Below are positions 5,819 to 49,243 of a stretch of DNA of 52,207 nucleotides, in pieces (positions within the stretch are counted from its first letter, which is position 1; the number at the start of each line of letters is the position of its first letter). A model generated the notes under the pieces. It had not been told where the DNA came from and did not search any database. It was given only the letters and a program-made list of their open reading frames with translations. The position numbers were made by a program, and so were the translations under genes. The stretch covers positions 1-52,207 of the forward strand of contig JAITOC010000057.1 in NCBI GenBank assembly GCA_031290175.1, in the 5' to 3' direction. This DNA is from Coriobacteriales bacterium. Its GTDB lineage: Bacteria > Actinomycetota > Coriobacteriia > Coriobacteriales > UBA8131.

Positions 5819-7114
5819 ATGAGACCAAAAAAGGTCGTTTTTCGGCACCGGTTACAGCTATCTGATGCAAGGGTACATCTTTGTGAGCGCTTCTTCTTGT
5901 CATTCATTTTGACTTTTGCATCGGTGCTCTTCTGCTCCATGGTCTCAGTGTTCAGTGGTTTGATCCCCTGGGAAGTTCAGGTTGCCTACGGGTTGGACAA
6001 GATAGACAGGGAGTATACCTACGATGCCGCAGGAGCCCCTCCGCAAGTAGAGCAGATGGTCACCGATGAGGCCGGAAGCCACTACAAGCTCGTAGCCACC
6101 AGCGAGCCGATTCCCGCAGATGGCTTTATCCACGAGATGGTCTTCACTTTTACGCAGATACGAGCCATTACTGCTGAACAACAAGCACAGGGGGAGGCTG
6201 CGCTGCGTGCCCAATTTGAACCCCGAGTGCTTATTGACGAAGACGATTATCGGGGTTCCATTCCGTTTGTCTCGCTCAATTCGGAGCCGTTTTGGCGCTC
6301 GGTTGAACGGGTGGTTGATAGGCAGTCCACCTACAAGGGTCTCCCCAGCGAGGACATCATACAGTTGCCCGAATATGCCGATTTTCTCGTCACAAGCGAC
6401 GAATCCGTGGATGCAAGCACGACAAAGAGCTTACGACGTGCTGGCGTTGTCTGGAAAACAACGGGCTATGCGGAGGATGGGCGGCCAAACGAGTTTGCCG
6501 CAACCGTCACCTATCGAGGTGTCGAGCGCGATCTGGTTGCCGATTATTATCTGGTCACCGCTCACTATGAAGGCGTCGTACCCGCGCGCGCCCAGATGGT
6601 GACCATTGTTGCAACCTATGAATTGCAGGTCGAGCCAGAGGTTGTGCGCGCCGCAGCGGTTCCGCCGCGTGAGTCGGCCAGCCTGCCCGCTGTCAATATC
6701 CCCCTTGATGCTCCTGCGGCTCCCTTCCCCTGGTTTATGCTCGGTCTTGCAGCCATGGTGAGTCTGCTTGGTCTGCTCATCTTGCTCTACTTTCTCCTGC
6801 GCAACAACGCCCAGCTCATTGAGACCTCTGTGGAGGGGCCAAGTCGCGTGTTGTTGCGCAAGCGTCTGAGGCTGAACGACGGTGAGGCACTCTTTCCGAT
6901 TCCCGCTGAACTTGAGCTCTTTGCTGCGGGTACTGCGCACAGGATTGTTCTGAGCGAGCGCCTTGCAAAGCGCGAAGGGATGCTGGTCGTGCACTGGGGT
7001 GACCTGCGGCTTTTGCTAACGCGTCTGTCGCGTGAGGTGGATTTGGCAGAGGATTTGGTCAGTGCCGCAACACCAGAGGTGTTGTCTGAAGGGGGGTTGA
7101 CCAAAGATGCATGA
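5819..7114 (+). CDS. Membrane protein: N-terminal TM/signal, ectodomain, TM, cytoplasmic C-terminal domain; first gene of adhesin operon
   Basis: Hydrophobic N-terminus, FPWFMLGLAAMVSLLGLLILLYFLL TM; ectodomain homologous to the C-terminal part of ORF 44171-49243 (see findings). Confidence 0.75.
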   Translation: MRPKKVVFRHRLQLSDARVHLCERFFLSFILTFASVLFCSMVSVFSGLIPWEVQVAYGLDKIDREYTYDAAGAPPQVEQMVTDEAGSHYKLVATSEPIPADGFIHEMVFTFTQIRAITAEQQAQGEAALRAQFEPRVLIDEDDYRGSIPFVSLNSEPFWRSVERVVDRQSTYKGLPSEDIIQLPEYADFLVTSDESVDASTTKSLRRAGVVWKTTGYAEDGRPNEFAATVTYRGVERDLVADYYLVTAHYEGVVPARAQMVTIVATYELQVEPEVVRAAAVPPRESASLPAVNIPLDAPAAPFPWFMLGLAAMVSLLGLLILLYFLLRNNAQLIETSVEGPSRVLLRKRLRLNDGEALFPIPAELELFAAGTAHRIVLSERLAKREGMLVVHWGDLRLLLTRLSREVDLAEDLVSAATPEVLSEGGLTKDA

Positions 7115-7919
7115 CGAGAAGACAAACCCCGAAGACAAGCAGGAGCTCGAAGACAAGGCCGACCGCAGAGGAGTGATTATTGGCCTTGCGCTAGTGGTTG
7201 TCTTCTTCATTGCGCTCATCTTGCTGTTTGCTTGTTCGCATTCGGTGGATTCTGTGTACACAGACGATACCAAGACGCTGCCCTCTTCCGGGAAGCCAAC
7301 AGAGGCTGGAGCCGAAAGGGACGTTAAGGCACCCGACAAGGCAACGGATGCGGATAAGGATGACGGGGACGGGAGGGGTGCAGACTCAGCTGGCGGCGAA
7401 GACACGCCTGCATTCGGTGATGAAAGCTCAAGCGGTGGGAGTGGCTCCGGGGGAACGGGGTCTGGCTCAGGAAGCGCGGGGAGCGGGAGCCCGGGGAGCG
7501 GGAGCACGGGCAGCAGCGGTTCTGGCAGCACGGGGGGCTCCGGTGGAGGAGGGACTGCGCCGGGTGGCAGCGGTTCCGGTGGCACGGGTGGCTCGGGCGG
7601 GGGAGGAGCAACGACGCCAACAGATCCCAATGCCGGAAAGACCTGGCACCCCGCATGGGACGAGAGCGTGTGGGTTGTAGATGTTCCGGGGCACAATAAC
7701 GAGGTCTACCATCAGGAGGAGGGACACTATGCTGCTGTGTGCAATACCTGTGGCGCAGAGCTCGGTCCCGGGTTGGCGGGTCAGCACTTGTTGGGCACAG
7801 GGCACGATAGTTACAGAAGCAATATATGGTTTACAGATGTCCCTGCGTGGATCGAGTCTGTCTGGGTACCTGAAGTAGGGCATTGGACAACGATACACCA
7901 TCCGGGTTATTGGCAATAG
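7107..7919 (+). CDS. Single-TM protein with Gly/Ser-rich linker and C-terminal CxxC/His/Trp-rich domain
   Basis: GVIIGLALVVVFFIALILLFACS TM; GSGGTGSGSGSAGSG... linker; WHPAWDESVWVVDVPGHNNEVYHQEEGHYAAVCNTCGAELGPG...HLLGTGHDSY...WHPGYWQ-like tail; overlaps previous gene by 8 nt. Confidence 0.7.
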   Translation: MHDEKTNPEDKQELEDKADRRGVIIGLALVVVFFIALILLFACSHSVDSVYTDDTKTLPSSGKPTEAGAERDVKAPDKATDADKDDGDGRGADSAGGEDTPAFGDESSSGGSGSGGTGSGSGSAGSGSPGSGSTGSSGSGSTGGSGGGGTAPGGSGSGGTGGSGGGGATTPTDPNAGKTWHPAWDESVWVVDVPGHNNEVYHQEEGHYAAVCNTCGAELGPGLAGQHLLGTGHDSYRSNIWFTDVPAWIESVWVPEVGHWTTIHHPGYWQ

Positions 7920-7934: not shown

Positions 7935-10900
7935 ATGACACACAAAACAACACACACTGCGTCTGTGGGAGCTACGCTTCGGCGTTGCCTGCCGGCACTG
8001 TTTCTCGTAGCGGCTCTTGTGCTCTGTGGTTTGCAGGCTTCCCTCGCCTTTGCAGAAGACGAGATGGAGGAGGCTGTTTCTGGCACATCGGTTACGGCTG
8101 AAGAGGATGCAGGGGAAGATGACGCTCCTGCCGTCAAGCAGTATTCACCCCCTCTAACGCCCGGGCCTCCTCCGGTTGCAAGCATTCCACTGGGCAGCGG
8201 TGGCTTCGGTCTATTTGATGTAGCACCCTTCACTCCTCCCGCCACCTTGACCGGCACGTTTGAGGTGACCTACGCCTATGATACAAACGAGCCAAACAGC
8301 CCCGTGCGCAGCGATGACCACTTTGAGGGTAACCTGGCTATTGTGGAAGGGGACTTCACGGTAGATCGCTACGGTGCCTGGACACCGAACAATCCTTACA
8401 GCAACAGGGCAGCTGTGTGTTTGGATGGCTATGACCCCAATCGCCCCTATTACAACACCAGTTGGCCGGTCGGTACGCGTGCGGAGCATGTCGTACTGAC
8501 CTTTCTGAACTACGACACAACGACAAAACTTGTCTGGTACTACGCTCAGCTCTCGATGAACGCACCTCAATATCAGCGCCTTGGCATGTATGTGGCACTG
8601 AGCTGGGGCGGTGCGATTGAGTTGCAGAAACTCAGTGCAAGTCCAGCGATGACCGACGGTAATGCCTGCTACTCACTTGCAGGTGCCACCTATGGATTGT
8701 ATGAGTCTCAGCTAGACGCCGCAAACGATACCAAGCGTATCCATACCTTTACCACGAACAGCAGCGGTTATGGAGGCAAGGCAGAAGACCTCTGGTTTAG
8801 CACCTACTACATCAAGGAGTTGACCGCTTCTCCCGGATACGAGCTCGACGGGCGCATCTACGCGGTTGCGCTCAATACCGCGCTGGTCAAGCAGGAGGTT
8901 CTGGAAATACCCAAGGCCGACCCAGTGATCATGGTCGTACAAAAGCTCGACACTGAGACCGGTGAGGCCTACGGCAAGGATGACCCCTCAGGTGCTTCTT
9001 TGGCAGGGGCAGAGTTCACCATCCGCTATTGGGCTGGCTACTACGATACGGTGGAGGATGCTGAGGAATCTGGAGCGCCGACGAGAACATGGGTTTTGGT
9101 GACGGAGTCCAGCGGGCAGACCGCAATGATACCTCGGCTGCTTGTTTCTGGAGATCCCTTCTATTATGGTCTCGACGGCAACCCCACCCTCCCCCTCGGC
9201 ACCGTCATCATCCAGGAGACAAAGGCACCCCCTGCCTACCTCTTGCCCACCACCACACCCACGCTTGCCAACAAGGGCATCCAGCACATCAAGGAAGACC
9301 CCCTCGGTAAAGTTATCGAACTCAACCCGCTCCTCGTACCTGAGACTCCCCGCAAGCTCATCGTTGCCAAGCGTGACCGCGACACGCAGGCACTCCTGCC
9401 CGGTGCCACCTTTGCCCTCTATAAGGAGAGCGCCAAGGGGGCAGGTGACTGGAAGCTCATCGCCACCAAGACAACCGATGCAACAGGAACCATCAGCTAC
9501 GCTCCCATTGCGGCGGGTTCGTACAAGGCGGTAGAGACCGCAGCGCCTGCGGGCTACCTCCTTCCCTCTCAAAACGGTGGTAGCAATGAGCAGGCCTTCG
9601 TGATCAGGGAAAGCGACACCAAGCAGACCGTCGAGCTCACCTTCAACGACGCAGAGATTACCGGGGCAATCGAGCTGCGGAAGCAAAGCGAGAATCCAGC
9701 TTTGACTAACGGCAATGCCAGCTATTCCCTTGCGGGTGCCACCTATGGACTTTATGGGTCGGAGACAAACGCAAAGGCGGACAAGAACCGTCTGCACACG
9801 TTTACAACCAACGCAAGCGGCTACGGTGGCAAGGCGGTCGATCTGAAATACAGAACCTACTACATCAAGGAGCTAAAAGCCTCTCCTGGATACACACTCG
9901 ATGAGAAAATCTACACCGTGAAGCTCAATACTGCGCTGACCACGCAGGAGGTTTTAGAAGTGCCCAAGGGAACCCCGGTGAGCATGCTTGTGCAAAAGCT
10001 CGATAGCGAGACTGGCCAGACCTACGGCAAAGACGACCCGACCGGGGCTGCCCTGGCAGGGGCAGAGTTCACCGTCCGCTATTGGGATGGCTACTACGAT
10101 ACGGTAGAAGAGGCTGAGGCCTCTGGTGTACCGACGAGGGTCTGGGTGTTAAAGACGGGCGTCGATGGAAAGGCCTCGATGGGCTCTCCTTGGCTCGTTT
10201 CAGGAGACGCCTTTTACTACGATACCAGCGGCTCCCTGATCCTGCCTCTCGGTACGGTTGTCATCCAGGAGACAAAGGCACCACTTGCCTATCTCTTGCC
10301 CACCACCACACCAACGCTTGTCAACAAGGGCATCCAGCACATCAAAGAGAACGCGCTTGGTACCGTCGTTGCATTCAACTCGCTTAAGGTACCCGAGACC
10401 CCGCGTAAACTCATCGTTGCCAAGCGCGATAGCGAGACACAGGAGCTTCTGCCCGGCGCAACCTTCAAGCTTTACAGGGAGAGCGCCAAGGGTGCAGGCG
10501 ACTGGAAGCTCATCACCACCAAGACGACCGATGCAGCGGGAACCATCACCTATTCGCCCATTGCAGCAGGATCTTACAAAGTGGTCGAGACTGTGGCGCC
10601 TGCGGGCTATCTTCTTCCTTCCCAATGCGGCTACAGCGACGAGCAGGCCTTCGAGATAAAGGAAAGCGACACCGCGCAGATCGTCAAGCTCACCTTTGAG
10701 GACACAGCAGGCACCATAATCGTGAACAAAGTCGACAGCGATACCGCAGAACCTGTGGATAACACAGAGTTCACGCTCTACTCCTATCCCGTGACTCTTG
10801 CCAATGGACTTATCACAACCGATGTCTCCATCATCACCTCCGACGACCCCGCCTGGGCAGAGGTGGATACCAAGGTCACAGACGCACAGGGCAAGTTGGT

Positions 10901-12122
10901 TTTTGAAACCCTGCCCTTTGGGTACTACAAGATCGTCGAAACCCGCTCGAATCCCCTCTACGCAACCAATGAGGAGAGCGGGGGCACAGACCACTTTATC
11001 GTGCTCGACAAGAACACGACATCCGAGGTTCAGCTCTTTGAGGACGATCTCATACAGCTGTCCTGCGAGATATTCAAAGACACTATCAACGTCACGAGCG
11101 CAGCATTCCGAAGTGGCGAGGACGACTCGCTCGGCATTGATAACACGAATGCCGAGATGTTCCACTACGATCTTGACTTCCGTTCGACCTCCAGCGTGCG
11201 TGCCGACGAGTTCACGGTTATCGATTACATGGAAAGCGCCGCCGCTGGTCAGGTCACGCTCGTCGAGTTGTTCACGCCGGTTACCTGGGGCGATACGGAC
11301 GGATCTTTCAATCTCTGGTATCAGACGAACCTGACAGATGCGGGCACAATGTATTCACATGCGAATGCCATGAGTATCGACTCAACAGACGCCGACATTC
11401 CTGAGAAGGCACAGCAATGGTCGTCTCGCGGCTGGAGGCTCTGGGCGGCCGGTTTGCCCACCACAGCCACAACTCATTTGTTGGTCGCCGATCTCGGACT
11501 CTCGCCCAATGAATACGTGACGGCAGTCCGGTTTGAGTTTGGCAGCGTTGAGGCGGGGTTCACGACACGGGCAGCTGTCATCAACGGGCTGCAAACGGCC
11601 AAGGAGTTCAAAGATACCTCTGTGGATTGGACGAACCCGAAGATCACGGATGATGGTGCTGACAGAACAGACGAGGTGGACGCAGGCAATCCAAGGAGCG
11701 TTACCGTCCAAGGTGTGGCAAGTGCTTCATGCGCCCCCTCTGCCTCCGAGCTCAGACCCGCCACCTACCTCGTAACCTGCCCCGACGAGCTCATACCGCC
11801 GGCGGTGCTCACGAGCTCAGCACAAGCATTCATCGCACGCAACAGCGTCTTGACTGACGAGGATCTTGATTCTGTGAACACGCAGGTCATCGGAAGTTTC
11901 ATGCCACTGACCTTCTCTGATCCGCCGACCGATACCTCTACTCTGAAGAACTACGGCCAATCGGGCTCTGGCAAGCGCCTGCCCGACATGGGCGACTCTA
12001 CCTTAGGCACGCTTGCTCTTGCAGGAGCTCTGTTTGCCCTGGGTCTCGCCTTCATCGCACAACGCCGACTTGATAAATCAGCAAACAGGAGAACGACGCA
12101 ATCCCAAGGGGAGGCCGCATAA
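7935..12122 (+). CDS. Cell-wall-anchored adhesin with CnaB/SpaA-type repeats and LPDMG-type sorting signal
   Basis: Signal peptide ...LCGLQASLAFA; repeats KLIVAKRD.DTQ.LLPGATF.LY, ETAAPAGYLL, STYYIKELTASPGYELD; C-terminus RLPDMGDSTLGTLALAGALFALGLAFIAQRRLDKS. Confidence 0.88.
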   Translation: MTHKTTHTASVGATLRRCLPALFLVAALVLCGLQASLAFAEDEMEEAVSGTSVTAEEDAGEDDAPAVKQYSPPLTPGPPPVASIPLGSGGFGLFDVAPFTPPATLTGTFEVTYAYDTNEPNSPVRSDDHFEGNLAIVEGDFTVDRYGAWTPNNPYSNRAAVCLDGYDPNRPYYNTSWPVGTRAEHVVLTFLNYDTTTKLVWYYAQLSMNAPQYQRLGMYVALSWGGAIELQKLSASPAMTDGNACYSLAGATYGLYESQLDAANDTKRIHTFTTNSSGYGGKAEDLWFSTYYIKELTASPGYELDGRIYAVALNTALVKQEVLEIPKADPVIMVVQKLDTETGEAYGKDDPSGASLAGAEFTIRYWAGYYDTVEDAEESGAPTRTWVLVTESSGQTAMIPRLLVSGDPFYYGLDGNPTLPLGTVIIQETKAPPAYLLPTTTPTLANKGIQHIKEDPLGKVIELNPLLVPETPRKLIVAKRDRDTQALLPGATFALYKESAKGAGDWKLIATKTTDATGTISYAPIAAGSYKAVETAAPAGYLLPSQNGGSNEQAFVIRESDTKQTVELTFNDAEITGAIELRKQSENPALTNGNASYSLAGATYGLYGSETNAKADKNRLHTFTTNASGYGGKAVDLKYRTYYIKELKASPGYTLDEKIYTVKLNTALTTQEVLEVPKGTPVSMLVQKLDSETGQTYGKDDPTGAALAGAEFTVRYWDGYYDTVEEAEASGVPTRVWVLKTGVDGKASMGSPWLVSGDAFYYDTSGSLILPLGTVVIQETKAPLAYLLPTTTPTLVNKGIQHIKENALGTVVAFNSLKVPETPRKLIVAKRDSETQELLPGATFKLYRESAKGAGDWKLITTKTTDAAGTITYSPIAAGSYKVVETVAPAGYLLPSQCGYSDEQAFEIKESDTAQIVKLTFEDTAGTIIVNKVDSDTAEPVDNTEFTLYSYPVTLANGLITTDVSIITSDDPAWAEVDTKVTDAQGKLVFETLPFGYYKIVETRSNPLYATNEESGGTDHFIVLDKNTTSEVQLFEDDLIQLSCEIFKDTINVTSAAFRSGEDDSLGIDNTNAEMFHYDLDFRSTSSVRADEFTVIDYMESAAAGQVTLVELFTPVTWGDTDGSFNLWYQTNLTDAGTMYSHANAMSIDSTDADIPEKAQQWSSRGWRLWAAGLPTTATTHLLVADLGLSPNEYVTAVRFEFGSVEAGFTTRAAVINGLQTAKEFKDTSVDWTNPKITDDGADRTDEVDAGNPRSVTVQGVASASCAPSASELRPATYLVTCPDELIPPAVLTSSAQAFIARNSVLTDEDLDSVNTQVIGSFMPLTFSDPPTDTSTLKNYGQSGSGKRLPDMGDSTLGTLALAGALFALGLAFIAQRRLDKSANRRTTQSQGEAA
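8611..10704 (+). repeat. Two tandem ~1.05-kb intragenic repeats within the adhesin gene
   Basis: Unit 1 ~8611-9666 (IELQKLSASPAMTDGNACYSLAGATYGLY...) and unit 2 ~9667-10704 (IELRKQSENPALTNGNASYSLAGATYGLY...); co-linear along their length. Confidence 0.85.
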
Positions 12123-13960
12123 TGAATCTGGCAGCAGAAAGGCTCGTGCAGAGCATACAGGAAACCACCGAGGTGCCGACCTTCATCGTGGCACCTTCAA
12201 AATCCGGGCGTTCCGCCCTTGCGCTCGCCTATGCCCGTGCCCATTGTGGCGTCGAAGAGGCGTGTTGGCTTGATGGCACTTCCGAGGCTTTTAGAGAGGC
12301 GCTCGATAAGGGTCTGCTTGAAGTGTTCCTCAGCTCTGAGGCTCCCGAGTATGCTGTATGCAGACTTATCGTCATTGACGATTTACCGGGGCTCGACGAT
12401 GGAGCTGCCCAGCGTTTCTCGGACGGGATCGACCGTCTGGTTGAACGAGGCAAACAAATAATCGTCATCTGTTCGCCTGAAAACGATGCGTTTGCAAGCC
12501 TTCAATCTGATCGTCACCTCATCGATGTGCGAGCGCTCTGCTCGATCTTCAGGCACGATGAAATGCGCACACTTGCCTTTCTGCAAGCATTTTTTGCCTC
12601 GGATCTACCGCTTGAGTTCAAATCGACTGCAAGCCTCATGATACTGATGCGCACGGGCGTTGCCGATGAGTTGCGCGCCCTGGGGTATCACATTGCATCC
12701 GACACCCCCCTGCTCCTCAGTGCGTCTTGTCCCCTTATCGACTTCGATAGCTCTAGCGGCTACTTTGATGCCCGTGCATGCTTGCTCAAAGGGCTTGACC
12801 AGCAGCTCTTCGCCAGTGTTTGTGCTGCTGCGCGCGAAGGAGAGTGTGTCGTACAAAGCGAGAAGGAGCGAGCTTTTGAGCGGCTGTCAGGGCTTGCCAT
12901 GCATCTGTTTGGGCGCGACGAGCGACAGGAGAGCATGGAGGTACTCGAACTTGCGGGCAGGATACTTGCCTTCGATGAGCTCGGATCAGCCCAGCTCACA
13001 AGCCTTCCGAAGGAAGGGAAGCCCAACGAATCTGATCTCATCCGTCCATCCGCTACTGCTTTGGACTTTACCCACGCGCCCGGCACTGTCTCCAACCTCA
13101 TCTGTTCACTCGACAGCATATCCGGTGAGGAGCTTCCCTCTCTCGATGTTCCAAAAACCCCCAAGGGGCGCACGAGTGTTTCAGAGCAGCGTGATTGTGC
13201 GGTGGAGCCGCTCGTGGTTCGCTTGTTCGGTGGCATGGAGATTATACTCAACGGTGTGCGCATCGAAGCGTCACTCCTGAGAAGAAGCAAGGTCAAACTA
13301 CTCTTTATCCACCTTGTCCTGAGCCTGGGTAAGGGCGTCTCGCGCGATACGCTTATCGAACGCCTTTGGCCGAACAAAGACCGTGTCCATGCGCGCGACA
13401 ACTTCTATGTCACCTGGTCACGCCTGTGTCGGGTGCTTGCAGGCTCGGAAAGCAGTTGCCCCTATCTTTCCAACAACAATCAGATATGTCGCATTGATGA
13501 TCGCTATGTCTCACTGGATATCCTTGAGTTCGATGAGCTCTCCAAGGCGGTGCTCTTTGGCAGAGGACCCCTCGATGAGCAGCTTGATGCTATCTTCCGG
13601 CTCGACCAGCTCTATCGAGGAGACATCCTCGCCGGCCTGCAGCTCGATTCTCATATTCGCAGCAATCAGCAGCGCTACCGGAGCCTTCTGGTTGACGTTA
13701 TGCTCAAGGCGGCGCAGACCTTCTCTGAGATGGGCAATGGCGACAATGCGTTATGGTTCGCGCGCAAAGCCTATGAGACCGATGCGACGCGCGAGGACGT
13801 GTACCGCATCCTCATGGACATGCAGGATCGCGCGGGGCAGCGCACCTCAGCCTTGCGCACGTACTTTGACTGCAAGCGCTATCTCAATGAAGAACTCGGC
13901 ATCATCCCCTCACAGCGCACAACAGCGCTCTATCAGGAACTCATCCTCGATCGGAGGTGA
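12122..13960 (+). CDS. SARP/BTAD-type transcriptional regulator with degenerate N-terminal P-loop-like domain
   Basis: VRLFGGMEIILNGVRIEASLLRRSKVKLLFIHLVLSLGKGVSRDTLIERLWPNKD (winged helix) and BTAD-like C-terminus (ENFYVTWSRL..., ALRTYFDCKRYLNEELGIIPS); TAATG overlap with the adhesin stop. Confidence 0.8.
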   Translation: MNLAAERLVQSIQETTEVPTFIVAPSKSGRSALALAYARAHCGVEEACWLDGTSEAFREALDKGLLEVFLSSEAPEYAVCRLIVIDDLPGLDDGAAQRFSDGIDRLVERGKQIIVICSPENDAFASLQSDRHLIDVRALCSIFRHDEMRTLAFLQAFFASDLPLEFKSTASLMILMRTGVADELRALGYHIASDTPLLLSASCPLIDFDSSSGYFDARACLLKGLDQQLFASVCAAAREGECVVQSEKERAFERLSGLAMHLFGRDERQESMEVLELAGRILAFDELGSAQLTSLPKEGKPNESDLIRPSATALDFTHAPGTVSNLICSLDSISGEELPSLDVPKTPKGRTSVSEQRDCAVEPLVVRLFGGMEIILNGVRIEASLLRRSKVKLLFIHLVLSLGKGVSRDTLIERLWPNKDRVHARDNFYVTWSRLCRVLAGSESSCPYLSNNNQICRIDDRYVSLDILEFDELSKAVLFGRGPLDEQLDAIFRLDQLYRGDILAGLQLDSHIRSNQQRYRSLLVDVMLKAAQTFSEMGNGDNALWFARKAYETDATREDVYRILMDMQDRAGQRTSALRTYFDCKRYLNEELGIIPSQRTTALYQELILDRR

Positions 13961-44170: not shown

Positions 44171-47100
44171 ATGAAACTGCAATCTATTTCGGCGGCATTA
44201 GCTAAAGGCCTGGCCACGGCTCTCGTCGTGCTGGTTGTCACTGCGGGCATCCCCTTTGTGGGACTCGCGTTTGGCAACGAGACGGTGAGGGGGTCGGGCG
44301 TTGCGGGCACTGCGCCTGCGGACTCCGACGCACAGAGTGCGCCTGATTCCAGCGCCATCCGAACACTAGACCCCGTACTTGCAGCAGAGACGAGCAACGC
44401 GGGCGCCTTGAGCGCGAGCGGCGTCGTCAGTGAGGACGCCCTAATCCCGGTCGAGCAGGAAAACTCCGATCAAGCCAACGACACCACCAGCTCTGAGGGT
44501 GCGGATGGCGCGGAGGTCGATATCAGCGGATTCACCATTCTTAGCGCGGATCTCACCGACCAGATAAATCTTCAGACGGGCTTTTTCTACTTCGACATGG
44601 CACTTCAGGAGTTTGTCAGGGTTCCGCCGAGCTTCTTGTTCATGAACGACCAGGTTGCCAGCCGTTACCGGATAAAGGCTGATTGGGATCTCGCGGGCGG
44701 CGTCATTGTAGAAGAGGGCAGCAGCTTCAGGATACCCATCTCCTTCGAGGGATCGGATATGCGTTTTGGAAACGTCTTGCCTATCTCATTCAAAGGCATA
44801 GATCAGACATCCGGGCAGGAGTTCCAGCTGGGAACCATCACGCTCAAGCATACCGATGCGCTGGGCAATCTGCTTGATACACCCCTGACCGAACCTGGCA
44901 GCTACTTTGCGCTCATCGCCACGTTTGACAGCGGTGCCTTCAGCGCACTGAACAACATCAAAGGCGAGTTCTTTATCGACTGCGAGATATACCCCGAGGA
45001 GGGGACTGAGTACGACGAGTTCAAGTGGACCGTGGGCAATGAGACGGGTGAGGGCTCCACGCAGGAGCCCTACGTCCCCCCGATAGTGGGGGAGCCGGGC
45101 TGGAGCACCAAGGAGGACTTTAAAAAGCTCTCGCAGCTCGATGCAAACAATGCCATGGTTCTCAACAGCCTCTACATCAACGAACAGCGCGAGAGCTTTT
45201 CAACGTATGGGAGCTCGGTGAAGTTGGCCGATACGATTGGCCCCGGCCAGGTGCTTTCGCAGCACTATGTTTGGGTGGACGGATCTGGTTTTGACCAGTC
45301 CTACGCACCCCAAACCGTCGATTACGCGCGCGGTATCTTTGGCTCCACGGTAACTGCCTCGGAGGGTGCCCCGGCGTACTTCAAGATGCTGGCTATCGAC
45401 TGGGAGCACGCTTATCAGATCCTCTACGATGTGCAAAGAGGCAGGAACAAGAGCTCGCTCGCTGGATATCCCATCACCAATCCTGCCTCTATCCCCAATC
45501 TCTCCTACGAGCTGCAGCAGAAATACCTTATCGTCGTGCGTTCCGCCACATGGGCGATAATCACCCGGGCAGTTGGTGGTGACTCGATAAGCCAAGCCCA
45601 AGGAGCTTTGATATTCGGCACCGACTTCAGCTACCTGAATAGCAATCCCGCGTACGCAACCTATCGCGCTACCTACGGCGATTTTACCGACTTTGAGGAT
45701 GTGCTGGCCTACTTTCTTACGCCGGTGGATCCCGCAGCCCTAAACAGCATCGAAGTTGATGAGACCAGCTTCACCCTAGACTTCAAGGATAAGGCGCTCG
45801 ACAAACAGACGCTGTTCATCTCCTACTTGACCAAGGTATTCGATCCTTTGCAGTCGTTGCTGTCAAACTCGGCAAACATCGATTGGAAGGGCAGCCCACG
45901 TCCGGTTTATTCATCGACGACAAACACAACAGGCGGCGGCGTGGTGACGGGTGATACCAACACCATCATGCTGCACAAACTTGACCCCCAGGGCAATCCC
46001 TTGCCGGGCGCGCACTTCAATGTTAGCAGGTATGCCGCTGACGACATCGAGCTCACGACTCCGCTCTTCAGTGAGGACCTCATACTCGGCAATGACGGCG
46101 CATGGGCCTCTACCGACAGGTTGGGCACCTATACAAAAGAGGATCAGATCGTCATAACCGAGACCCATCCACCGCGCGGATTCCTCCCTATCCCGGAAGC
46201 AAAGATTGTTTTGCATATAGACCCGGAGCACAACTATGCCGTTGTATCCTGTACGCCAGTGCCGAGTGGAGGTGGAGCCGATGGCGTACCCTGGCTTCAT
46301 GTTAGCGTCACAAACAATGGATCGGTACATATCTACGTAATCGACCAGCTCGATCAACAGCTCTCTCTGTATGACGTAGCTCTGCGGAAGTGGATTGTCA
46401 GGGTAAATGATACAGCCGTCACTGACGACGCCGCAACACAGGGGCTGCCTTCTCCCGTTGTGCAGGTTGATTACAACGATTATGTCACCTTCAAGATACG
46501 AGTCTTCAACCAGTGCGAGGAGCCGCTCATAGCAGCTGAAATCACCGATTACTTCCCTCGCTGGTTGCTTTGGGATGAGGATCTTGCCTCTGTTGAGAAC
46601 GCCGGCTGGAGCTTGGTTCCAGGAGCGGGGGGTGCGCGCGACCTGCTCGTTTACGACTGGAGCGACTATCCTACGGGTGCTCCGGTACTCACTCCGAACA
46701 CCTCAACTGAGCCGGGTGTCTACAGTGAGGGTTCTTATGCAGACGTCTATCTGACGCTTCGTGTCTCACCCTCAGCACCGGCAGGAGACGTCTTCACCAA
46801 CCTTGCGGAGGTCAGCAGGCTGACCGATGAGGACGGTGCCGCTGTTGTCGATATTGATTCGATCCCTGACCAAGACCCTGAAAATGACGGAGCCGTATGG
46901 GATAACGTCATAGACGGCAACGCGAAGGATCCATCAGCATCAGGCGCGGATAAGGATGAGGACGATAGCGACCTCGCTGAAGTCATTATCCCCAAGGCTA
47001 TCAGCTGCGAGGTTGACAAGGACACCATCAACCGCACGAGCGCAGCCTATGTCAGCCTGCCCGGGCAAGAGGGTTTTGATAACGTAGGCAAGGAAGACGA

Positions 47101-49243
47101 GCGGTTCCGCTACGACATAGACTTCCGTTCGACCGCGAATACGGACTGCACTGAGTTTGTCGTCGATGATCCGCTGGAAAATGTCGGAACCCTTGATCAG
47201 GTACGGGTTGAGGAGCTTTGGACAGCAGTGGTCTGGGGCGATAAAGACGGCAGGTTCAATGTCTGGTACAAGACCAACAAGACAGACGACTCGGCTGACT
47301 ATGACATAAGCACGCTCAGCGCCGATTCTGGTGTCCTGGCTTTTCCCAACACCGGCTTCAAACTCTGGGCAGCGTTTGATGACGCTACGAGTAGCAGTTA
47401 TACAGAAAGTGGCGTTATTCCGCGCCATCGGCTGAGCCTTCCCGAGGGTCTTGCTGATGATGAGTACATTACCGCTATCCGTTTTGAATACGGGGAAGTC
47501 TCGATAGGATTTACCAGCAAGAATTATTCTGATGTCTCGAAAAACGGGGAACACCGTGATAGCGAAGGCAACGTCGCGCTTCCCTCGGAGAAGGCGTCAG
47601 CCCTCAAGCTCCTCTCCACCTCGGATCCCTTCTCCCCGAGCTTGGCGATGGGCGAAGCAATCACCAAGACATCGCTTGATTGGACGCCGCAGACCATACG
47701 GTCGGACTTCGCACAGGGAGCACTCGATGCACCTGGACTCAAGCCAGCCTCCTATCTCGTATCAGCGACGCGACTCATGGAGGATGATGACATCGTATCC
47801 TCCGCATCTGCCCGTATAGCTTTAGCCGAGATGCGTGACCTCGACCAGGATGCTGTAGTTACCAAAGAGATTGGAACGTTCAAGACGCTCCCCATCACCC
47901 CCAATTTCGAAATCGGTCTGGACAAGACCAGCAGCGAAGTAAACGATGATTTGAAAGTTAACCAACGGACTGTCTGGGGTGGTCTTCCTTTGACGGGCGA
48001 TGACATCGTTTTATTGGTAGTGGGTCTCGTGCTTTGTCTCATAGGTCTTTGCTTCATAGTCGCGAGCAGGCGACGCTTGAGGCTTGAGAGCGACTCAAGC
48101 GGTTTGCTCGCATCCGCGTCCGCAGGAGTTCACCGAAGGCCGACTTCGACCGAACCGACCGTGTCTGTGGAGGCTCGCCTGGGGCAGTACGAGAAAAGCC
48201 CCTCGCGTGCAGGCATGCACAGTCGTCGTCGAAGGCTCCGCTTTAAGTGGCTTCCTATCACCAGTGGCTTCCTGCTTATGTTGGGCGTCTTGGTCTCGCA
48301 CGCCTTTGCTGAACCCGTCTCCACTGTTCCTGCAGACAGCTTGGTCAATGTCGAGTACCGTTATCTGGAGGGTGAAAGTGTCGATATGCCGCAGGAGATA
48401 GTTCAGTACGGACAGCGCTATCGCCTTGTGAGCCAAACTGAACCAACACTTGAAAACATGCTCCCCACGACGCGTACGTATACATACCGTGTCTACGGAA
48501 AATTGACCGAGGAGGGGCTTGCGGAGGCAAAGGCGTTGCCCGGCGTGAGCATCGTCCCCGTCGATCTCGTCTTTGAGCGACAGGTTGAGGGAAGAGGGAT
48601 CATCGAAGGTCTGAGCGATAACGATGTCGATAACCCTGACCTGCCCACCAAGGGGCTGTTCTCCGTCACTTCAGCAGATGCAGCTACGGGGACAGTTCAG
48701 TCTGAGCTCAGCCGTGCTGGAGTAGCGTACGAGGTGACCAGCTATGATGAGTTCGGTCTGCCAGAAACGTACAAGGCAACACTCGTGTTTCGTGGAATCG
48801 AGTCTTTCAAGGACTTCGGATATTACGAGGTCAATGCGCAGTACACCTCAACTGAGCAGATTGGCGAGAAGGCGCAGTATGTCATCGTTGCAACCTATGA
48901 ACCGGTCGACTTGGTAATCACGACTCCAGAAGGAGCTTGGCAGGCAGGTATCGATCCTTCTGCCGGAAGCGCGACAGGCGAGCAGTCCAGTGACGCTGCA
49001 GCTGATGGGCAAGACGAGGGCTCGGGGCAGCTCGGGCTGACCCCTCCCGTAACGGTTCCGAACAAGCCGCCTGTGGCTGATGGCATGGCGGGGAACGTTC
49101 TTGCCGGTATCCCCGATGGTGAAGTTGCTTTGGCGGGTCAGCCAGGGTCTCCTGCCCTTGCGCTTATAGCCGTCTTTATCGGGCTGGTGCTCATAGCGCT
49201 GCTCACAGTCTTCCTGTGGAGGAGGAAGCGGGCAGGCAAGTAA
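44171..49243 (+). CDS. Giant composite surface protein: adhesin with internal LPLTG sorting signal fused to a second signal/TM + ectodomain + TM
   Basis: N-terminal signal; CnaB-like NTIMLHKLDPQGNPLPGAHFNVS; internal GGLPLTGDDIVLLVVGLVLCLIGLCFIVASRRRLRLES; then RRRRLRFKWLPITSGFLLMLGVLVSHAFAEP; C-terminal SPALALIAVFIGLVLIALLTVFLWRRKRAGK. Confidence 0.85.
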   Translation: MKLQSISAALAKGLATALVVLVVTAGIPFVGLAFGNETVRGSGVAGTAPADSDAQSAPDSSAIRTLDPVLAAETSNAGALSASGVVSEDALIPVEQENSDQANDTTSSEGADGAEVDISGFTILSADLTDQINLQTGFFYFDMALQEFVRVPPSFLFMNDQVASRYRIKADWDLAGGVIVEEGSSFRIPISFEGSDMRFGNVLPISFKGIDQTSGQEFQLGTITLKHTDALGNLLDTPLTEPGSYFALIATFDSGAFSALNNIKGEFFIDCEIYPEEGTEYDEFKWTVGNETGEGSTQEPYVPPIVGEPGWSTKEDFKKLSQLDANNAMVLNSLYINEQRESFSTYGSSVKLADTIGPGQVLSQHYVWVDGSGFDQSYAPQTVDYARGIFGSTVTASEGAPAYFKMLAIDWEHAYQILYDVQRGRNKSSLAGYPITNPASIPNLSYELQQKYLIVVRSATWAIITRAVGGDSISQAQGALIFGTDFSYLNSNPAYATYRATYGDFTDFEDVLAYFLTPVDPAALNSIEVDETSFTLDFKDKALDKQTLFISYLTKVFDPLQSLLSNSANIDWKGSPRPVYSSTTNTTGGGVVTGDTNTIMLHKLDPQGNPLPGAHFNVSRYAADDIELTTPLFSEDLILGNDGAWASTDRLGTYTKEDQIVITETHPPRGFLPIPEAKIVLHIDPEHNYAVVSCTPVPSGGGADGVPWLHVSVTNNGSVHIYVIDQLDQQLSLYDVALRKWIVRVNDTAVTDDAATQGLPSPVVQVDYNDYVTFKIRVFNQCEEPLIAAEITDYFPRWLLWDEDLASVENAGWSLVPGAGGARDLLVYDWSDYPTGAPVLTPNTSTEPGVYSEGSYADVYLTLRVSPSAPAGDVFTNLAEVSRLTDEDGAAVVDIDSIPDQDPENDGAVWDNVIDGNAKDPSASGADKDEDDSDLAEVIIPKAISCEVDKDTINRTSAAYVSLPGQEGFDNVGKEDERFRYDIDFRSTANTDCTEFVVDDPLENVGTLDQVRVEELWTAVVWGDKDGRFNVWYKTNKTDDSADYDISTLSADSGVLAFPNTGFKLWAAFDDATSSSYTESGVIPRHRLSLPEGLADDEYITAIRFEYGEVSIGFTSKNYSDVSKNGEHRDSEGNVALPSEKASALKLLSTSDPFSPSLAMGEAITKTSLDWTPQTIRSDFAQGALDAPGLKPASYLVSATRLMEDDDIVSSASARIALAEMRDLDQDAVVTKEIGTFKTLPITPNFEIGLDKTSSEVNDDLKVNQRTVWGGLPLTGDDIVLLVVGLVLCLIGLCFIVASRRRLRLESDSSGLLASASAGVHRRPTSTEPTVSVEARLGQYEKSPSRAGMHSRRRRLRFKWLPITSGFLLMLGVLVSHAFAEPVSTVPADSLVNVEYRYLEGESVDMPQEIVQYGQRYRLVSQTEPTLENMLPTTRTYTYRVYGKLTEEGLAEAKALPGVSIVPVDLVFERQVEGRGIIEGLSDNDVDNPDLPTKGLFSVTSADAATGTVQSELSRAGVAYEVTSYDEFGLPETYKATLVFRGIESFKDFGYYEVNAQYTSTEQIGEKAQYVIVATYEPVDLVITTPEGAWQAGIDPSAGSATGEQSSDAAADGQDEGSGQLGLTPPVTVPNKPPVADGMAGNVLAGIPDGEVALAGQPGSPALALIAVFIGLVLIALLTVFLWRRKRAGK

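Follow-up and report, generated by a model that had tools for sequence, protein, structure and literature searches.

A candidate polyprotein that joins a sortase-type adhesin to a putative membrane partner through an internal sorting signal and an internal signal-peptide-like segment

How should a surface-protein reading frame be understood when its cell-wall sorting signal does not lie at the extreme C-terminus and a second export signal follows it? This question is raised by a 1690-aa open reading frame (ORF) in a 52,207-nucleotide stretch of a Coriobacteriales draft genome (the whole stretch is hereafter the window), in which 386 residues lie C-terminal to the RRRLR that ends the sorting signal. 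The window contig is C98 of this 1.78-Mb genome, which is 78.5% complete. Isolate names of related records indicate that the bacteria carrying such fused ORFs probably inhabit the gut, namely that of termites.

Layout and recurrence of the fused reading frame

A preliminary description of the locus had proposed a composite layout, with a sorting signal, a linker, a second signal-like segment, an ectodomain and a last transmembrane segment (TM) in one frame. All of these parts were located and are given below, where A is the name used here for the C-terminal part, which represents a family without a Pfam model.

44171..49243, + strand: fused adhesin-A polyprotein ORF, 1690 aa (open frame; homologous fused ORFs at loci L021-L024)
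44171..44281, + strand: N-terminal signal peptide region (TM 14-32), from hydropathy
46958..47920, + strand: ADH, the conserved membrane-proximal adhesin domain, aa 930-1250
47984..48082, + strand: internal cell-wall sorting signal, made up of LPLTG (47984-47998), TM1 (48005-48061) and RRRLR (48068-48082); TIGR01167 on the isolated segment
48083..48220, + strand: linker of 46 aa, predicted to be cytoplasmic
48215..48217, + strand: in-frame ATG proposed as an internal start, without a Shine-Dalgarno sequence
48224..48310, + strand: internal signal-peptide-like segment, from charge and A-x-A, made up of the basic n-region RRRRLRF (48224-48244), the second hydrophobic segment or h-region (48251-48307) and the site SHAFA↓EP, with a predicted cut after 48310
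48311..48913, + strand: A-family ectodomain, modelled as all-beta with pLDDT of about 80-95
48914..49150, + strand: low-confidence spacer, presumably disordered, with a modelled pLDDT below 50
49151..49240, + strand: C-terminal TM (about 49151-49216) and basic tail WRRKRAGK, without a cytoplasmic domain

The ORF starts at an ATG with a usable Shine-Dalgarno sequence upstream (duplex of -8.4 kcal/mol) and stops at TAA 49241-49243. Between the signal peptide and ADH lies a long part that was read as extracellular, and the whole 1690-aa chain contained no accepted domain of Pfam or NCBIfam.

The same fused layout was found in five genomes of five genera, assembled separately, namely the window and four others with ORFs of 1645 aa (L021), 1877 aa (L022), 2427 aa (L023) and 2077 aa (L024). 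In all five, the order of parts is a P-x-T-G-like motif, a TM, basic residues and a linker, followed by a basic n-region, a hydrophobic segment, an A-x-A type site, an ectodomain and a TM. The linkers are mutually unrelated in sequence and unequal in length, and the distance from TM1 to the second segment ranges widely, from about 20 to 98 residues; the charges and the TMs are kept. This recurrence bears directly on whether two genes had simply been joined by an assembly or sequencing error. In support of such an error, the named fused relatives are metagenome-assembled genomes, and the openness of the window linker is unsurprising when taken alone, as its 62 codons would stay open by chance at P of about 0.18. 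At codon positions 1 and 3, the GC content of this linker falls within the range of coding sequence. Against it, five assemblies from different genera carry different linkers that are all in frame, and we consider an error of this kind extremely improbable. We therefore took the fusion as real because the layout recurs in five genomes, and not because the window linker is open. With very high confidence, the fused ORF is neither a product of chance nor a misassembly.

The C-terminal half as a gene of its own

The preliminary description had also called for a search for homologues that are fused or split at this junction, and both forms were found at exactly this point. A profile termed A1, built from 22 members, matched 25 of the 33 genomes of the family and 13 more genomes of the order, several of these weakly; its match to the window ORF (1.5e-80) is to one of its own 22 rows. 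At about 30 loci, A is encoded separately; these proteins begin with a hydrophobic or signal segment of their own and continue with the ectodomain and a TM, after which a cytoplasmic domain of about 100 aa usually follows. The window ORF shares the homologous all-beta ectodomain and the TM after it, with 25-30% identity to the standalone members. The cytoplasmic domain, which is present in most standalone A proteins and is retained in the L024 fusion, is absent from the window fusion. This domain seems to be portable, and in another genome (G013) a 1305-aa ORF (L059 1477-5391) ends in a TM followed by the A-family cytoplasmic domain and no other part of A.

In the AlphaFold2 model of A, residues 7-202 form an all-beta ectodomain predicted with confidence, and a disordered spacer leads from it to a TM helix. 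Profile searches of Pfam, NCBIfam and the PDB with the ectodomain returned nothing significant, and a Foldseek search of the model against the PDB gave no credible fold (best E 0.026, TM below 0.1). The ADH domain likewise had no Pfam or PDB match, and its model was of poor quality, with a mean pLDDT of 47.8.

Wherever the contig leaves room to check, an adhesin with ADH adjoins standalone A on the same strand. The adhesin regions upstream of ADH vary (SpaA, FctA and SipW-dependent matrix types), and ADH and A form the constant pair. Because of this constant pairing with ADH-type adhesins, A is most likely a dedicated membrane partner of the adhesin's ADH, and its part may lie in assembly, in retention or in sensing. 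This links sortase-type adhesins to a membrane protein family that had not been described. The window itself contains one such split set:

5819..7114, + strand: A as a standalone gene, paralogous to the C-terminal half, with an N-terminal hydrophobic segment, ectodomain, TM and cytoplasmic domain
7107..7919, + strand: gene B of the split operon, with a TM and Trp/His-rich repeats
7935..12122, + strand: SpaA-repeat pilin/adhesin, the partner of standalone A (PF17802 2.6e-74; ADH match)

The SpaA-repeat pilin ends in a C-terminal LPDMG and carries the same ADH as the fused adhesin; a gene for a BTAD-type transcription activator (12122-13960) begins directly after it. Gene B, which had no match in Pfam, has repeats of the form HPAWDE..VWV..CxxCG..HHPGYW and was observed in several split A/adhesin loci (L029 2282, L032 7686, L038 8252, L061 3888, L063 2959 and L065 9504). 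None was found at the fused loci.

A second set of split genes was found in a metagenome-assembled genome of Clostridiales Family XIII, where four loci (L044, L045, L046 and L072) have the adhesin gene followed by the A gene. At each of them the start of A overlaps the end of the adhesin, through TGATG (L044 and L046), ATGA (L045) or GGTGAATAA (L072). The Shine-Dalgarno duplexes of A in L044-L046 are strong, at -10.7 to -14.8 kcal/mol, and in L072 a GGAGG lies upstream of the GTG start. The L072 protein has one C-terminal TM and lacks the cytoplasmic domain, like the window protein, and begins with an ordinary signal peptide, MKLSLSTVIVLALTLALTVPTAVFALPE.

In three of the Family XIII loci, a gene for an ECF sigma factor with a long C-terminal extension lies directly 3' of A (L044 10208-11338, checked against Pfam; L045 10151-11311 and L046 7971-9119, both similar to that of L044). 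This gene is a possible signalling link. Since it follows A, and since standalone A has a cytoplasmic domain, a sensing role for A is possible, which we offer as speculation. In the same loci, the frames of A and adhesin genes include at their N-terminal ends a dispersed repeat-like sequence, GFTGACRSTPSTSRVKPAMTVIG...ARNDG (L044 8752; L045 365 and 8746; L046 6491).

Sorting signal, with the predicted topology and processing

In the window ORF, an LPxTG motif is followed by a hydrophobic segment and basic residues. When the junction was isolated, it scored 19.1 bits against the NCBI curated model LPXTG_anchor (TIGR01167), above the cut-off of 15.9; the whole protein scored 14.0 bits, below this cut-off. 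The L023 junction likewise exceeded the cut-off, and the LPXTG models gave no match to the junctions of L021, L022 and L024. The motif is canonical in the window, L021 and L023, and degenerate in L022 (LVPTG) and L024 (APQTG). The window genome also encodes a sortase (PF04203 at G000:C2, 34.9 bits versus 26.6). The LPLTG, TM and basic tail are like those of TIGR01167 proteins, from which the window protein differs in that its signal is internal, with a second export signal beyond RRRLR.

Signal peptides were called here from charge, hydropathy and A-x-A sites, without a trained predictor, and by these simple criteria alone the internal segment has the basic n-region, h-region and A-x-A of a type I signal peptide. 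An A-x-A follows the internal h-region of the fused proteins, and most standalone A proteins show similar features at their N-terminal ends. In the fusions, TM1 and TM3 are preceded by little charge and followed by positive charge. The second segment has the reverse pattern, with a charge of +1 to +6 before it and zero or negative after it; in the window, the net charge is +6 before and -1 after. By the positive-inside rule, positively charged flanks are kept on the cytoplasmic side, and this charge pattern therefore predicts an alternating topology in which the adhesin and A face outwards and the linker and tail lie inside the cell.

Based on these features, we propose that an adhesin and its partner A, normally encoded by adjacent genes, became one frame, probably via loss of the adhesin stop codon. 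The chain would be threaded from its signal peptide with the adhesin outside, TM1 passing outward-to-inward and the linker in the cytosol. The second signal sequence would then pass inward-to-outward, leaving the A ectodomain outside, and TM3 would pass outward-to-inward. Sortase would cut at LPLTG, fixing the adhesin to the wall or a pilus, and signal peptidase would cut after SHAFA, so that A would stay next to the adhesin with a single TM and in a 1:1 ratio; the stub of TM1, linker and signal would be thrown away. Both cleavages are predicted from sequence. The reading we favour, with somewhat better than even confidence, is that stop loss fused a co-translated adhesin/partner pair whose product is matured at these two sites.

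The preliminary description had suggested that one ORF yields an adhesin and a separate second membrane protein, and this notion is supported by most relatives, which encode the second half separately. It had further described the second product as having two TMs, which now appears doubtful; a single-TM product is probable because the first hydrophobic segment resembles a cleavable signal peptide. A two-TM product would arise if sortase cut at LPLTG and the second hydrophobic segment stayed as an uncleaved signal anchor. This 19-aa segment, with a mean hydropathy of 1.75, is indeed long enough to span the membrane, and its n-region is strongly basic. Yet in the fusions the h-region runs into an A-x-A, and the homologues encoded alone open with ordinary signal peptides, as in L072, which makes an anchor unlikely.

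A chain that is never cut would instead form an adhesin tethered to the membrane, with three TMs, a second ectodomain and a vestigial LPXTG. The degenerate motifs of L022 and L024 are consistent with this, and fusion alone would hold the partner at 1:1 without processing. The canonical motifs of the window, L021 and L023, two of whose junctions pass TIGR01167, and the retention of the A-x-A sites argue against it, and we regard an uncut chain as rather improbable.

The preliminary description had also raised internal initiation at ATG 48215, by which A would be made separately from this codon or from elsewhere in the linker. The ATG is in frame and precedes the basic n-region, and L021 and L022 retain candidate starts in the linker with moderate Shine-Dalgarno pairing. 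However, the Shine-Dalgarno energy at ATG 48215 is -1.8 kcal/mol, weaker than the -3.3 that the remaining internal start codons of the ORF average, and the genuinely split sister genes reach the far stronger energies given above for L044-L046. Moreover, the L023 linker has no start codon and L024 has none before the signal segment. Because ATG 48215 is weak and two fused relatives lack a usable in-frame start, internal initiation is not the common mechanism of these loci, and it is disfavoured as highly improbable.

Origin of the fusion and comparison with known systems

Phylogenetic analysis grouped four of the fusions with the four split Family XIII genes in one clade (support 100/99). The L024 fusion fell elsewhere in the tree, on a long branch, with another set of adhesin-then-A loci. 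A single clade of all five fusions was rejected (p-AU 0.004 with 25 rows and 0.00045 with 35 rows), with the long branch of L024 as a caveat. At least two independent fusions are therefore likely, and the position of L024 calls for caution on this point. Both fused groups are placed among loci with A downstream of the adhesin, which is the arrangement that a stop-loss fusion requires. Constraining the four first-clade fusions to one clade was not rejected (p-AU 0.447), and in this clade the direction could instead be fission in the clostridial lineage. Taken as a whole, a polyprotein in which both a sortase signal and a signal peptide work within the chain, giving 1:1 products and arising at least twice from a co-translated pair, stands in our judgement at about even chances.

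The preliminary description claimed to know of no standard family with this layout. That goes too far, since a non-C-terminal LPXTG also occurs in streptococcal IgA1/Zmp proteases. In these proteases a further TM follows the LPXTG motif. The window ORF resembles them in that its non-C-terminal LPXTG is followed by a hydrophobic segment and an ectodomain. In the M26 IgA1 protease, ZmpB, ZmpC and ZmpD, a long extracellular domain lies after the motif (PMC7939560, PMC9637739), and a survey of YSIRK/LPxTG proteins found the motif away from the terminus in about 8.6% and called the localisation of its non-C-terminal LPxTG group indeterminate (PMC7644249). Our literature search for the present layout returned only the IgA1/Zmp precedent and that remark on non-terminal LPxTG motifs. 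The likeness stops there: the LPXTG of the IgA1/Zmp proteases is near the N-terminus with the catalytic domain after it, whereas in the window a complete adhesin precedes the motif, and relatives encode the C-terminal part on its own. Neither M26 nor G5 (Pfam) nor an HExxH motif (by sequence) was found in the window protein. A non-C-terminal LPXTG is thus known in itself, and what is new here is a full adhesin joined to a full second exported protein, with natural fused and split versions.

Other systems in which one translation product gives rise to two surface proteins include viral envelope polyproteins that contain internal signal peptides and the SlpA precursor of Clostridioides difficile. 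Unlike in these, the cuts would be made here by sortase and signal peptidase, and the comparison concerns only the division of one product into two. If the proposed processing holds, sorting signals and signal peptides can function mid-chain, and gene finders and localisation predictors that consider only the ends would therefore misread such proteins. The fused and split versions of one pair also make the localisation of non-C-terminal LPxTG proteins testable.

Finally, in L023 and in split L044, A ends in a three-TM part that is the FILTED domain (NF052597), from which the window protein differs by its single TM and to which it gives no match. FILTED was considered as a common theme and rejected, as any match was seen in only 5 of the 397 genomes of the phylum. 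Its cut-off was passed only by the window's own genome, which holds three FILTED matches, at G000:C41, C3 and C72 (L052, L057 and L058).
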